Shown piece after piece: positions 11,695 to 19,392 of a stretch of DNA of 49,885 nt (positions within the stretch are counted from its first letter, which is position 1; each line of letters starts with the position of its first letter). The notes below the pieces were generated by a model, which made no database searches, had not been told where the DNA came from, and saw only the letters and a program-made list of their open reading frames with translations. Both the position numbers and the translations under genes were made by a program. Source of the DNA: Chloroflexi bacterium OHK40 (GTDB lineage Bacteria > Chloroflexota > Chloroflexia > Chloroflexales > Chloroflexaceae); the NCBI GenBank assembly GCA_004367505.1, contig SFCB01000157.1, positions 1 through 49,885 of the forward strand, in the 5' to 3' direction.

Positions 11695-12063
11695 TCAGGC
11701 GGCAGCGAGGCGCCGAAAACCGGCGAGCGCCTCTTCTTCGTCCTGGTAGATCTCCGCATACTGGGCCAGGCCAACCATGCGGAAAATCTTCTGGAAGTGC
11801 TGCGATAGACCGCTCACGGCAAGTTTCTGGTTATTGCGGTTGACCTCGGTAACGATCCCGATCAGAATCGCGATGCCCGCGCTGTTGATATAGTCGTTCT
11901 GGCGGAAGTTCAACAGCACAAACCGGGCGCCCTTGTTGGTCACCTCGCGATAGGCGCCATTGATCTTCTCCTCGGCAAAGGTTGTCACATCGCCGAACAG
12001 ATCAATGATCGCCACACCATCCCGCTCGCGGGTGCTCACTGTCAGCTCATCTTCCAGCATCAT
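11695..12063 (-). CDS. STAS-domain anti-sigma factor antagonist
   Basis: A single STAS domain of 122 residues (RsbV/SpoIIAA type). In partner switching the unphosphorylated antagonist binds an anti-sigma kinase and frees its target; the kinase inactivates it by phosphorylating a serine. Here the site is in YINSAGIAIL (Ser61), with Asn in place of the commoner Asp before it. The start at 12063 is chosen because GGAGG lies five bases upstream; an ATG follows directly at 12060. Longer frames to 12078 or 12138 have no SD. It is the last of three minus-strand genes, after two anti-sigma kinases that are its probable partners. The gap to the preceding gene is 114 bp. Confidence 0.9.
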   Translation of the reverse strand: MMLEDELTVSTRERDGVAIIDLFGDVTTFAEEKINGAYREVTNKGARFVLLNFRQNDYINSAGIAILIGIVTEVNRNNQKLAVSGLSQHFQKIFRMVGLAQYAEIYQDEEEALAGFRRLAAA

Positions 12064-12177
12064 GCGCTCCTCCAGCATATCGGCAGCCGTCAAGCGACGA
12101 CAGCGTGGATCATTTCCGTGTCCCGCCTCGCGGTTCAAACACGCGAACGGGCAGGGGCCCGCAGGATGAGCAGCGGG

Positions 12178-12639
12178 CTACCGCTGCAGTGCCGGCGTTG
12201 GCCGGCGGTAGAACGCAAAACGAAAGCAATTCCCGGTACCATGCCGGGGCACGAAGCCCGCCTCATCGCAAAGCTGGCTGATCAGCATCAGGCCCATGCC
12301 ACGCAGCGATCCGAGGCCCGCAATCTTCTCCGTGATGCTCAGCGGCTCACCCTTTGGAGCAAATGCATTCACACCCTGGTCCACCACCTCGATAATCAAC
12401 TGCTCCTCCTCGAAACGGCAGAAGATCTGCACGCGCAGCCCGGGCTTAAGCAAGTTCCCGTGCTCGATCGCGTTAATGCAGGCCTCGCTCAGCGCGGTCT
12501 TCAGATCCTCGAGCCGATCGGGGCTAATGCCGAGCCGGCGGGCAAAGGCGGCCACCGCGTCACGGGCGATCACCTCGTAGCCAAGCTCGCTTGGGAGCGT
12601 GAGTTCCATGCTCATCTGGGTGGGGGACGGCGTGCTCAT
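12178..12639 (-). CDS. anti-sigma regulatory factor, RsbW-like serine kinase (copy 2)
   Basis: A GHKL/HATPase fold of 153 residues. The N-box is LSEACINAIEHGN, the G1 box VVDQGVN and the G2 box GLGSLRGMGLMLI. RsbW/SpoIIAB-type proteins bind and silence a sigma factor or other target and phosphorylate STAS antagonists. The start codon overlaps the stop codon of the upstream kinase gene by four bases (ATGA), so translation is probably coupled. The two kinases are paralogues: both share a GYE..A..A...ARR.G pattern and the NAIEHGN box. The retained N-box Glu/Asn and G1 Asp suggest that ATP binding is intact. Confidence 0.9.
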   Translation of the reverse strand: MSTPSPTQMSMELTLPSELGYEVIARDAVAAFARRLGISPDRLEDLKTALSEACINAIEHGNLLKPGLRVQIFCRFEEEQLIIEVVDQGVNAFAPKGEPLSITEKIAGLGSLRGMGLMLISQLCDEAGFVPRHGTGNCFRFAFYRRPTPALQR

Positions 12640-13094
12640 TGTTCGAGATGGATGACCATACGGACCTGGTTGCCCCCGCTCGGGGCGGTGGTAAACTCAA
12701 CCTCGTCCATCAACTCGCGGATCAGCCAGATCCCCCAGCCGCCCTTGTCCTCGCGCTCAAAGGCGTCTTCGATCTTTGGCTCCGGGGTGGTGCACTCCTG
12801 ATCAAGCTGTTTACGGCCCTGGTCGGCCACGTGGACGATCAACTCATCGGCACGGGCAGTGAGGAGCACGACCACCTTCATCGCGGCATCGTGCTGATTG
12901 CCGTGTTCGATTGCATTCGTCACCGCCTCACTGATCGCCGTCTTCAACGACTCAACCCGGTCCGCATGAAAACCCATGCGCCGGGCGAGAGAGGAGGCCG
13001 TATCCATCGCGACACGCTCGTAGCCAAGCTTGCTCGGCAGCCGCAGCTCGATCACCTTTTCCACAGGTTCACGCCGGGTGGTATCGTCGCTCAT
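12636..13094 (-). CDS. anti-sigma regulatory factor, RsbW-like serine kinase (copy 1)
   Basis: 152 residues, with N-box ISEAVTNAIEHGN, G1 box VADQGRK and G2 box DKGGWGIWLI. It is the first gene of the three-gene partner-switching operon and overlaps the second kinase by four bases. Compared with copy 2 it has a longer insert between the G1 and G2 boxes (about residues 93-118). No sigma factor, PP2C phosphatase (RsbU/RsbP) or sensor is adjacent, so input and target are encoded elsewhere. The likely promoter is the extended -10 at 13226-13234, and the leader of about 130 bases carries an 8+1+8 palindrome. Confidence 0.9.
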   Translation of the reverse strand: MSDDTTRREPVEKVIELRLPSKLGYERVAMDTASSLARRMGFHADRVESLKTAISEAVTNAIEHGNQHDAAMKVVVLLTARADELIVHVADQGRKQLDQECTTPEPKIEDAFEREDKGGWGIWLIRELMDEVEFTTAPSGGNQVRMVIHLEQ

Positions 13095-15904: not shown

Positions 15905-17671
15905 ATGTTCCGCTCGCACACCTGCGGCGAGCTGCGCCTGGAGCACGTCGGCCAGGAGGTAACGCTGGCGGGCTGGGTGCACCGCCGCCGTGACCACGGC
16001 CCCCTGATCTTCATCGATCTGCGCGACCGCTACGGGATCACCCAGGTGGTCTTCGACGCCTCGGATCAGCCGGAGGCCCATGCCGTAGCCAGCGAAGCCC
16101 GCTCCGAGTACGTGCTGCAGATACGAGGGCTCGTGCGCGCCCGGCCCCCCGAGGCCGCCAACCCCGATCTGGCCACCGGCGCGATCGAGGTGGAGGGCCA
16201 GGCCGCCACAGTGCTCAACCCCGCGCGTACGCCCCCGATCTACATCGCCAAGGAGGGCGGCGAGGAGGAGGCCCTGCGCCTGAAGTACCGCTACCTGGAC
16301 CTACGGCGCGAGCGGATGCAGCACAACCTGATCTTGCGCCACCGGGTGATCAAGTTCATGCGCGACTTCCTGGACAGGGAGGGCTTTCTCGAGATCGAGA
16401 CGCCGATCCTGATCAAGTCTACCCCGGAGGGCGCCCGCGATTACCTCGTGCCCTCCCGCGTCCACCCCGGGAAGTTCTACGCGCTGCCCCAGAGCCCCCA
16501 GCAACTCAAGCAACTGCTGATGGTGGCCGGCTACGACAAATATTTCCAGATCGCCCGTTGCTTCCGCGACGAAGACCTGCGGGCCGACCGGCAGCCGGAG
16601 TTCACCCAGCTCGACATGGAGTTGAGCTTCGTGGACCAGGAGGACGTGCTGGAACTGATCGAGCGGCTCTTCACCGAGCTCTGTCGCGCCGTGGTGCCGC
16701 AGAAGAAGCTGGTCACCCCTTTCCGCCGCCTGAGCTATGCCGAGGCAATCGAGCGCTACGGCTCCGATAAGCCCGACCTACGCTATGAGTTGGAGTTGGT
16801 GAACCTCGGCCCCCTGCTGGCCGCCACACCCTTCACGGTCTTCCGCAGCGCCCTGGAGCACGGTGGCCAGGTGAAGGGACTGCGGGCGCCCGGCCTCGGC
16901 GGCTACTCGCGCAAGCAACTTGACGAACTGACCGAACTGGCCAGAGCCGGTGGCGCCCGTGGGCTTGCCTGGGCCGCCCTGCCCGCCGACGGCGGCGAGG
17001 TGCGCTCCTCCTTCGCCAGGAACCTCGGCCCTGGCGAACTGGAGGCGATCGTCGAACGTCTCGGCGGCCAGCCGGGCGACCTGCTGCTGATCGTCGCCGA
17101 CCGGCCCGCTGTGGTGGCAGCCACCCTCGACAAGCTGCGCCGCGAGATCGCCAGCCGCCTGGGCCTGGCCGACCCGAATACGCTGCATTTCTCCTGGGTG
17201 CTCGACTTCCCGCTGGTGGAGTGGAACGCCGACGAAGGGCGCTGGGACGCTGTTCATCACCCCTTTACCGCCCCCCAGGATGCCGACCTCCCGCTGCTGG
17301 AGAGCGACCCGGGCAAGGTGCGCGCGAAAGCCTACGACCTGGTGCTGAATGGCTATGAGGTGGGTGGTGGCAGCATCCGCATTCACCGCCGCGATATCCA
17401 GCAGAAACTCTTCGCGCTGCTCGGGATCAGCCCGGAGACGGCCCAGGCTCAGTTCGGCCACATGCTCGAGGCGTTTGAGTATGGCGCCCCCCCCCACGGC
17501 GGCATCGCTCCCGGGATCGACCGAATCGTCATGCTCCTGGCCGATGAGAGCACCATCCGCGAGGTGATGGCCTTCCCCAAGACTCAGCAGGCCACCGACC
17601 TGATGACGAGCGCGCCGTCGAGCGTAGACGAACGCCAGCTCAAAGAGCTGCATATCGCCGTGCGGCCGTAG
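15905..17671 (+). CDS. aspS: aspartyl-tRNA synthetase, bacterial type
   Basis: A class II synthetase of 588 residues that charges tRNA with aspartate. Domain order is an N-terminal OB-fold anticodon-binding domain (1 to about 105), the catalytic core with motif 1 near residues 150-165 ([18 protein letters not shown]), motif 2 ([20 protein letters not shown]), the GAD insertion (about 290-420) and motif 3 ([13 protein letters not shown]). The length is normal. Position 31 is His (RRRDHG), the residue linked to relaxed specificity for tRNA-Asn in non-discriminating enzymes; position 83 is Glu, not the Gly of the well-studied relaxed enzyme. So charging of tRNA-Asn is possible but not settled. 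The ATG has GAGGAGAG four bases upstream. The gene is transcribed alone from a TGC-TATAAT promoter. Confidence 0.96.
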
Positions 17672-17800
17672 GAGCGTGGGCTGGCGCCGGGGGGCTGAAA
17701 CCAGATTGCCCGCCGACGACGCACAATCCTGCTCGACGGTCGTAGGCGGTTCTGGCCTGATCATCCAGGCTAAGGTTGCGTCAGAAGGCTCTTCCCCCAC

Positions 17801-17858
17801 TTGCGCGGGGGGCTGGCCCTCTCCGCTTGCGCGAGGGCTGGTCCTCTTCGCTTGCGCG
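17801..17858 (+). repeat. short tandem repeat, about 25-bp unit
   Basis: TTGCGCG occurs at 17801, 17827 and 17852. The first two copies continue as (G/A)GGGCTGG(C/T)CCTCT(C/T)CGC. The units differ at a few positions, as expected for a decaying tandem repeat. Confidence 0.65.
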
Positions 17859-18042
17859 TTCAGGGGCGGACAGAACAGGCAGAATGAAACGGGATGCTCC
17901 GCGTTGGGACGCGCTGCAGGCCCTCAGCTTCGCTTTCGCGGGGCAGGCCCCTGACCCCGCTCCCGCGTGCAGGAGTGGGGAGACGCAGCCCGTTAGGATG
18001 CGGCACATCGCTACGCGAACGCACGTTCTGACCGCCTTCAAA

Positions 18043-18096
18043 CGCTTGCGCGGGGGTGGGAGCCGTACGCGCCACGGCGGTGACGCCCACCCCCGC
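18043..18096 (+). repeat. inverted GC-rich repeat, copy of a dispersed intergenic element
   Basis: GCGGGGGTGGG (18050-18060) is complementary to CCCACCCCCGC (18086-18096) across a 25-base loop. The left 18-mer, CGCTTGCGCGGGGGTGGG, recurs exactly on the other strand at 40554-40571. Confidence 0.65.
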
Positions 18097-18174
18097 TTGG
18101 GCGGGGCGGGCTGGCGTTTCGGATGGTACAGACCCTCCCACCGAAGGCAGCTGAAGAACAGGGCATGATTGCGT

Positions 18175-18180: not shown

Positions 18181-18252
18181 ACATAGGCCGAGAGCGACCA
18201 TCATTACAGGCGCCCGCTGAGGGGGATGGCGCCACTCCCGGGAGCCACGCCC

Positions 18253-19230
18253 ATGCTGAAGCGCATCCTGGTCGTCGACGACGACCCCAATGTCCGCCGG
18301 ATCGTCAGTCTGGCCCTCACCGACGATTCGCCCTACGATGTCCACGCCGTCTCATCAGCCGAGGCGGCTCTGCTGCACATCGCCCGGCACCCGGTGGATC
18401 TGCTCTTCACCGACATCCGCATGCCCGGTATGAACGGGCTGGAGTTGGTGCAGCGCGTGCGCGAGCTGGACCCGAAGACGGCGGTGATCGTCTTTACGGT
18501 GAGCCCCCAGGATCTGACGCCCGAGCGAGCCGCCGAGCTCCAGATCGACTGCCTGCTGGAGAAACCAGTATCGCCTGAACGGATGCGCCTGGCGGTAGAC
18601 CTGCTGCTCGACCCGATCAAGCTGCTGCCACGACCATCGCAGCGCGGCGAGCAGGCCCCGTCACACGAGCCGGCAGTCGTGAGTGCGCCGGTAGCCCCAA
18701 CGAGCGGCCCCACGCCTACCGGGCCCCTCGGCCAGCGACTGGCTGCGCTGCGGGCCAAAAAACAAACAGCACCGCTCGCGCCGGCCCAGGGCGCACCGGT
18801 TGCGGTGCGGCTCACCTCGCGGGCGCCAGGCGCGGTGGGGCGGAGCTACTCCGACCAGCAGATCGAGGCGATGCGCCAGGCACTCAAGGAGCTCGCCCTT
18901 GAGCCGGATGTCCAGTGTGCCCTGCTCGCCGACATGAGCGGGATCGTGCTCACCCACTGGAGCCGCCGGCGCGACATCAATGTGACGGTGGTAGCCGCGC
19001 TCGCCGCCGGTAATACTCTGGCCCTGGCCGAGATCGGGCGCAACCTGGGCCAGCAAGCGCCCGGCCACCTGGTGATCCACGAAGGGCAGGATCAGAGCAT
19101 TATCATGGCCACAATGGCCGATCTGCTGTTGCTGATTGCTATTGGGCCCAATGCCTCGCTCGGCTGGGCCAGGATCGCCACGCTCCGAGCCTGCGAGGAT
19201 GTCCTGCGTATCGCCAGGGGTGCGGAGTAG
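18253..19230 (+). CDS. response regulator receiver fused to a Roadblock/LC7 domain
   Basis: 325 residues. Residues 1-120 form a CheY-like receiver: acidic pair Asp10/Asp11, phospho-acceptor Asp54 in LLFTDIRMPGMNG, Thr82 in VFTVS and Lys104 in EKP. A Pro/Ala-rich linker follows (about 125-210). The C-terminal 115 residues resemble the Roadblock/LC7 (MglB-like) fold, with the ADMSGIVLTHW strand, AALAAGNTLALAEIGRNLG helix, IHEGQDQSIIM and LLLLIAIGP. Roadblock proteins regulate or scaffold small Ras-like GTPases. No DNA-binding domain is present, so output is probably by protein contact. The ATG at 18253 is preferred over 18226 because GGGAG sits eight bases before it. No histidine kinase or MglA-like GTPase is adjacent. 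Confidence 0.85.
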   Translation: MLKRILVVDDDPNVRRIVSLALTDDSPYDVHAVSSAEAALLHIARHPVDLLFTDIRMPGMNGLELVQRVRELDPKTAVIVFTVSPQDLTPERAAELQIDCLLEKPVSPERMRLAVDLLLDPIKLLPRPSQRGEQAPSHEPAVVSAPVAPTSGPTPTGPLGQRLAALRAKKQTAPLAPAQGAPVAVRLTSRAPGAVGRSYSDQQIEAMRQALKELALEPDVQCALLADMSGIVLTHWSRRRDINVTVVAALAAGNTLALAEIGRNLGQQAPGHLVIHEGQDQSIIMATMADLLLLIAIGPNASLGWARIATLRACEDVLRIARGAE

Positions 19231-19280
19231 GGCAGAGGCAATTGGCTGAAAGTCCCCACGGGTCCCCGCCTCCGCGGGGG

Positions 19281-19392
19281 CTGCTTTCGCGGGGGCGACA
19301 GTATCGTTGGCGCGGCGATCCCTTGCCTGCGGCAGCTGGCCCCCGCCGCCTGGGCCCCTGCTGTCGCGGGGGCGACAGTACCGTTGGCGCGG
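19281..19392 (+). repeat. direct repeat of 35 bp, two copies 77 bp apart
   Basis: The copies at 19281-19315 and 19358-19392 share CTGCT(T/G)TCGCGGGGG, then CGACAGTA(T/C)CGTTGG and CGCGG. They differ at two positions. Each begins next to a GC-rich hairpin, so the repeat unit may be a small intergenic palindromic element. Confidence 0.7.

Follow-up and report, generated by a model that had tools for sequence, protein, structure and literature searches.

Can a bacterial sensor kinase act on a Ras-like GTPase through a single protein? The route from sensory phosphorylation to such a GTPase has been detailed mainly in Myxococcus, with several proteins standing between the two ends. In the 49,885-nt stretch of Chloroflexi bacterium OHK40 analyzed here (contig SFCB01000157.1, assembly GCA_004367505.1; hereafter the window), one gene had been predicted from the sequence alone to encode a response regulator whose output is a Roadblock/LC7 domain. 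Through such a fusion, a sensor kinase may steer the Ras-like polarity switch MglA directly.

The pairing of a receiver with a Roadblock domain is already known, and the window fusion is an uncharacterised further example. Fusions of Response_reg and Robl_LC7 were reported in 2014 from five BLAST matches to M. xanthus MglB and were confirmed in Pfam (Wuichet and Sogaard-Andersen, PMC4316618). Like the window protein, they contain an N-terminal receiver and a C-terminal MglB-like domain. However, they were merely noted, without study, and the C-terminal region of those five missed the Pfam model that the window protein matches. According to the same survey, no orphan MglB protein had been characterised by experiment up to 2014 (PMC4316618). 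We found no functional study of a receiver-Roadblock fusion in the open literature, nor any study of MglA in Chloroflexus-type filaments. Chloroflexus aurantiacus J-10-fl is a filamentous gliding phototroph (PMC3150298), and the fusion is a possible entry point to the control of gliding in filaments of this type. Moreover, the step from phosphorylation to GTPase could be tested with two proteins, since receiver and MglB-like domain form one conserved chain whose phosphorylation site is intact.

A receiver tethered to a Roadblock domain

The predicted open reading frame proved correct in both coordinates and strand (Table 1). A longer reading from the ATG at 18226 showed no conservation upstream of 18253 among the orthologs, and conservation in the ortholog alignment starts exactly at the Met codon at 18253; therefore, we favour the latter as the start. 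Promoter and terminator scans gave no signal above chance. Short GC-rich direct repeats flank the gene in the gaps at 17791-18107 and 19261-19392, comprising a 55-nt pair at 84% and units of 21-24 nt.

Table 1 Features of the receiver-Roadblock gene and its conserved neighbour, in window positions.
Feature	Position	Strand	Evidence
aspS, aspartyl-tRNA synthetase; sole conserved neighbour, upstream	15905..17671	+	20/20 ortholog loci
Complete gene, receiver-linker-Roadblock, 325 aa	18253..19230	+	ORF, Pfam, orthologs
CheY-like receiver domain, residues 1-120	18253..18612	+	Pfam Response_reg 90.7 bits; model pLDDT about 80-89
Acidic-pocket Asp9 and Asp10 codons	18277..18282	+	Invariant, 20 orthologs
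Asp54 codon, presumed phospho-acceptor	18412..18414	+	Invariant, 20 orthologs
Thr82 codon, receiver switch residue	18496..18498	+	Invariant, 20 orthologs
Lys104 codon, receiver active-site Lys	18562..18564	+	Invariant, 20 orthologs
Pro/Ala-rich tether, residues 121-197	18613..18843	+	Poor conservation, mostly low model confidence
MglB-type Roadblock/LC7 domain, residues 198-322	18844..19218	+	Pfam, phmmer, AlphaFold2, Foldseek, VIA-align
Predicted Roadblock helix alpha2, residues 244-264	18982..19044	+	Model secondary structure; equivalent of the MglA-contacting MglB helix

The N-terminal part had been described as a CheY-like receiver with an intact Asp54, and we can confirm both points. It matched Response_reg over residues 5-115 with an E-value of 8.5e-26 (90.7 bits against a cut-off of 30.2), and D9, D10, D54, T82 and K104 were invariant in 20 of 20 orthologs of 61-85% identity. 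The Pro/Ala linker that was proposed to join the two domains was likewise recovered: the region of about residues 121-197 is rich in Pro and Ala, variable in length among the orthologs and poorly conserved. In the full-length AlphaFold model, residues 125-194 mostly had a pLDDT below 50, which is what a disordered linker should give.

The output domain belongs to the MglB side of the Roadblock family

The original prediction assigned an MglB-like Roadblock fold to the C-terminal part and proposed a profile search as the check. This search gave a Robl_LC7 match over residues 210-295 (E 1.8e-7), scoring 31.3 bits for the full protein and 33.8 bits for the domain alone, above the gathering cut-off of 23 bits. 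The PDB entries matched by phmmer were of MglB only (6h5b, 6izw, 6hjm, 1j3w, 3t1r and others; E 2e-7 to 8e-3). Since the full-length model, built from 20 close orthologs, was poorly confident in Roadblock helix alpha2, we used a model of the domain alone. Built with 44 diverse relatives, this AlphaFold2 model reached a pLDDT of 93.8 and a pTM of 0.87, and its top 29 Foldseek matches were all MglB chains or MglA-MglB complexes, with E-values from 6e-10. In VIA-align, the modelled domain superposed on 6izw_B with a Z score of 19.9 and 1.3 A over 125 residues. These profile, sequence and structure matches identify the C-terminal part as an MglB-type Roadblock domain.

To place the domain, we then built a tree from 60 Roadblock domains, to which a long-branch warning applies. 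The window clade grouped with one chimera and with MglB2, a name that we coin here for stand-alone Roadblock proteins encoded beside MglA2 in relatives (for example, L197:1688-2167 and L198:1751-2230), at 96/87 with outgroups and at 100/99 in a second run without the distant Roadblocks. The genome's own MglB and M. xanthus MglB also lay on the MglB side, and RoblA and other Roadblocks fell outside it at 99/99. MglB2 is the sister of the window Roadblock (100/99), at a mean identity of about 36% versus about 20-22% to the other groups, and the two have Trp236 and Trp305 in common. Grouping of the window Roadblock with MglB1, which like MglB2 is coupled to an mglA gene, was not firmly rejected by the AU test (p 0.056). 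Unlike the window protein, MglB2 has no receiver, carries a C-terminal tail and is coupled to MglA2; it was not found in the window's genome. Since MglB2 stands next to MglA2, the nearest kin of the window output domain is encoded beside an MglA. The tree shows the window Roadblock to descend from the MglB side.

The MglB proteins of M. xanthus and T. thermophilus share the Roadblock fold with the window protein (Z 19-20) at about 20-28% identity, including an equivalent helix alpha2. In MglB, this helix contacts MglA, and GEF action is carried by the Ct-helix (PMC6785124). Whereas MglB serves as the GAP of MglA and, through the Ct-helix, as its GEF, the window Roadblock is fused to a receiver, uncoupled from mglA and devoid of the acidic Ct-helix: in the sequence, the orthologs and the model alike, the chain ends right after the last Roadblock helix. 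Because this helix is missing, GEF action of the MglB type is unlikely for the fusion. The GAP activity of M. xanthus MglB (MxMglB) is tied to Asn37 and Arg98, which contact switch I (PMC11016934). In the window Roadblock, the Asn37 equivalent is Ser229 and the Arg98 equivalent is not Arg. However, the genome's own MglB likewise has Ser at the first position and no Arg at the second, so the missing residues are not decisive against a GAP. Such a role is possible for the fusion, its residues giving no indication. At the alpha2 position of MxMglB Ala64, the window Roadblock has Leu, the genome's MglB has Ala and MglB2 has Leu or Met. Against the NCBIfam MglB equivalog, with a cut-off of 200 bits, the window protein scored 31 bits and the genome's operon MglB only 73.

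Distribution and genomic neighbourhood

Of the 37 genomes in the window's taxonomic family, 26 (its own genome included) carry a full-length ortholog of the fusion as a single copy, at 62-84% identity, and one further family genome has an ortholog cut by a contig end. No ortholog was found in 24 genomes from other families of the order, and among 400 sampled genomes of the phylum the full-length matches were confined to the window's family. A scan of genome contigs with the whole protein, from which close records may be left out, gave receiver-domain relatives only and no named ortholog. Within it, the fusion has been retained at 61-85% identity over many genera. It is missing from about ten of the 37 genomes and from MglA-bearing sister families, which points to an accessory to MglA rather than a core part.

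At all 20 ortholog loci examined, aspS is immediately followed by the fusion gene, and the two share a strand. None of the genes downstream of the fusion in the window was found at these loci, and the conserved neighbourhood contains no kinase or GTPase gene. In the window itself, the fusion gene is flanked by aspS and a radical-SAM/DUF512 gene, and the mglA of this genome lies on another contig. In the sister families, as in several genomes of the window's own family, other genes follow aspS, so the fusion either arose inside this family or disappeared from those lineages. We considered a functional link to aspS and discarded it: aspS also stands without the fusion gene in sister families and basal genomes, and for this reason the pairing looks like shared ancestry. 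The adjacency marks orthology and is not taken as a functional partnership.

The fold and the neighbourhood also bear on the idea that the Roadblock is merely a dimerisation platform, in a protein whose output goes to a target that is not a GTPase. Being profilin-like, the Roadblock fold is widely used as a scaffold, no GTPase gene is linked to the fusion, and the conserved neighbour is aspS. The clear placement on the MglB side of the tree and the MglB-like fold speak against this reading, which we consider quite improbable.

Elsewhere in the window, positions 11695-13094 (-) encode a STAS protein and two adjacent HATPase_c_2 (RsbW-like) proteins, likely a partner-switching module. This module is conserved near aspS in many relatives; in g6 genomes it lies about 8 kb away on the opposite side.

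Small GTPases and other Roadblock proteins of the genome

The original prediction depended on an MglA-like GTPase in the genome, and our genome search returned a true MglA together with two other small GTPases. Neither of the two outcomes named in advance as refuting the prediction, a C-terminal part unlike Roadblock/LC7 or a genome devoid of such GTPases, thus applies. The MglA gene is located on contig C214 in an operon that encodes a Roadblock protein, an MglB whose C-terminal helix is acidic, MglA itself and a DUF4388 protein. Against M. xanthus MglA (6hjh), the MglA of this operon reaches 229 bits, and it keeps the motif R-T-L-F-F-D-F (Arg53, Phe56/57/59) as well as Gln82, residues with catalytic and MglB-binding roles in MglA (PMC6785124). 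MglA was present in 30 of 30 genomes tested, which makes its co-occurrence with the fusion uninformative. In this genome and in the tested g10 and g4 genomes, which have the fusion and no MglA2, the search found a single MglA only; this lone MglA is therefore the simplest target of the fusion.

The two further small GTPases, on contigs C3 (L049) and C243 (L053), stand apart from MglA, each beside a DUF4388 protein, and the one on C3 is also near a Roadblock gene and a globin-like ORF. One of these, instead of MglA, might be the target, as both are encoded in the same genome and one has a Roadblock gene close by. However, the Roadblock near the C3 GTPase groups with non-MglB Roadblocks outside the window clade (99/99), and MglB2, the kin of the window Roadblock, adjoins an MglA. 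We consider such a target improbable.

In total, the genome has seven Pfam-level Roadblock matches, to which a second receiver-Roadblock protein, encoded on contig C82, adds a divergent eighth. This second fusion (G000:C82, L247:7410-8519) lies at the ATP-synthase locus and is present across the order. A receiver-GAF-HisKA-HATPase kinase (L247:5323-7200) adjoins it, and the arrangement of kinase, fusion and atp genes recurs across the order. Its receiver is degenerate, with the acidic pair and the Lys lost and with D, N or E at the phospho-site (Glu in this genome).

A third kind of receiver-Roadblock protein was found in relatives only, in an operon that runs from a degenerate receiver-Roadblock through MglB2 to MglA2 (L197:789-2167, L198:824-2230 and L199-L202). 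MglB2 is encoded about 100 bp upstream of MglA2, which is 45-49% identical to MglA, and the receiver of the accompanying fusion is even more degenerate than that at the atp locus. The unlike Roadblocks of this operon look like a heteromeric pair with its own GTPase. Among the three receiver-Roadblock families, only that of the window has an intact phosphorylation site; in the other two, the phospho-acceptor position is D, N or E or has been lost. The tree did not favour a common origin for all receiver-Roadblock fusions, but such an origin was not firmly rejected (AU test, p 0.057).

The mglA2 operon lends weight to the main rival to direct control. The window Roadblock may pair with the genome's MglB or with the atp-locus receiver-Roadblock and act as a co-regulator or scaffold without touching a GTPase, like MglC and RomR around MglB in Myxococcus. 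The MglB dimer is asymmetric, with the Ct-helix from one protomer and the GAP contacts from the other (PMC11016934), so a Roadblock without a Ct-helix could form half of a mixed dimer. The fusion lacks this helix, which MglB and the neighbouring Roadblock partner of MglB2 carry, and in relatives MglB2 adjoins an MglB-side Roadblock of another subclade, the degenerate receiver-Roadblock, together with MglA2. Heteromeric Roadblock complexes are common (PMC9481161), and an MglB-MglC-RomR complex is known (PMC12719032). On the other hand, the window Roadblock is much nearer in fold and sequence to MglB than to MglC (Z 19.9 versus 12.5 for MglC 7ct3 in VIA-align), and no partner gene is linked to the fusion in the neighbourhood conserved over 20 loci. 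Because a mixed dimer is conceivable and a pair of unlike Roadblocks precedes mglA2, we treat this as a serious alternative, although on balance a rather doubtful one.

A possible route from Asp54 to MglA

We give about even chances to a reading of the window protein as an orphan single-output response regulator that would act via its MglB-type Roadblock on an MglA-family GTPase. An unlinked histidine kinase would phosphorylate Asp54, and the phosphorylated receiver would change the way in which it dimerises or touches the remainder of the chain. The flexible Pro/Ala tether would pass this change on, altering the dimerisation or presentation of the Roadblock domain. Either as a homodimer or together with a different MglB-side Roadblock of the cell, this domain would bind a small GTPase of the MglA family, the most likely one being the single MglA encoded on C214. 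The fusion would thereby shift the GTP/GDP balance or the position of MglA, with an effect that would be GAP-like rather than GEF-like, and the process so controlled may be gliding or pilus polarity.

Direct control of a GTPase by the fusion is plausible but unproven, because the fusion lacks the Ct-helix and Arg98 and because Roadblock proteins often act in pairs. In its most specific form, the proposal makes the MglB-type Roadblock a regulator of MglA (GAP or co-GAP) that phosphorylation of Asp54 turns on or off. In gliding, filamentous relatives of Chloroflexus, this one protein would then stand in for the multi-protein Frz-RomR-MglC/MglB relay of Myxococcus. We put this forward only tentatively.

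Relation to other receiver and Roadblock architectures

RomR resembles the window protein in having a receiver and a Pro-rich tether tied to the regulation of MglA and MglB. However, RomR has no Roadblock, and its C-terminal helix binds the Roadblock protein MglC (PMC12719032), whereas the window protein combines receiver and Roadblock in one chain. Its C-terminus being a Roadblock, it does not have the RomR layout of a receiver with a C-terminal helical region. Archaeal REC-NitrOD3 proteins, found in a census of two-component systems, carry a novel output domain related to Roadblock/LC7; unlike in the window protein, this relation is remote and was detected by HHpred only (PMC5847659). Actinobacterial conservons (CvnA-D) also connect a histidine kinase with an MglB homologue and with a GTPase of the MglA-like kind (PMC4316618), but contain no response regulator.

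Two further proteins were noted in the course of these comparisons. The chimera in the tree, L055:7716-8711 of genome G007, joins a receiver resembling those of the mglA2 operons to an MglB2-type Roadblock and has the look of two adjacent genes that were joined. L244:895-1917, from a different family of the phylum, encodes a receiver-Roadblock protein in which the receiver is intact, the tether very short and the C-terminal tail rich in Pro, indicating that the receiver-Roadblock design recurs.
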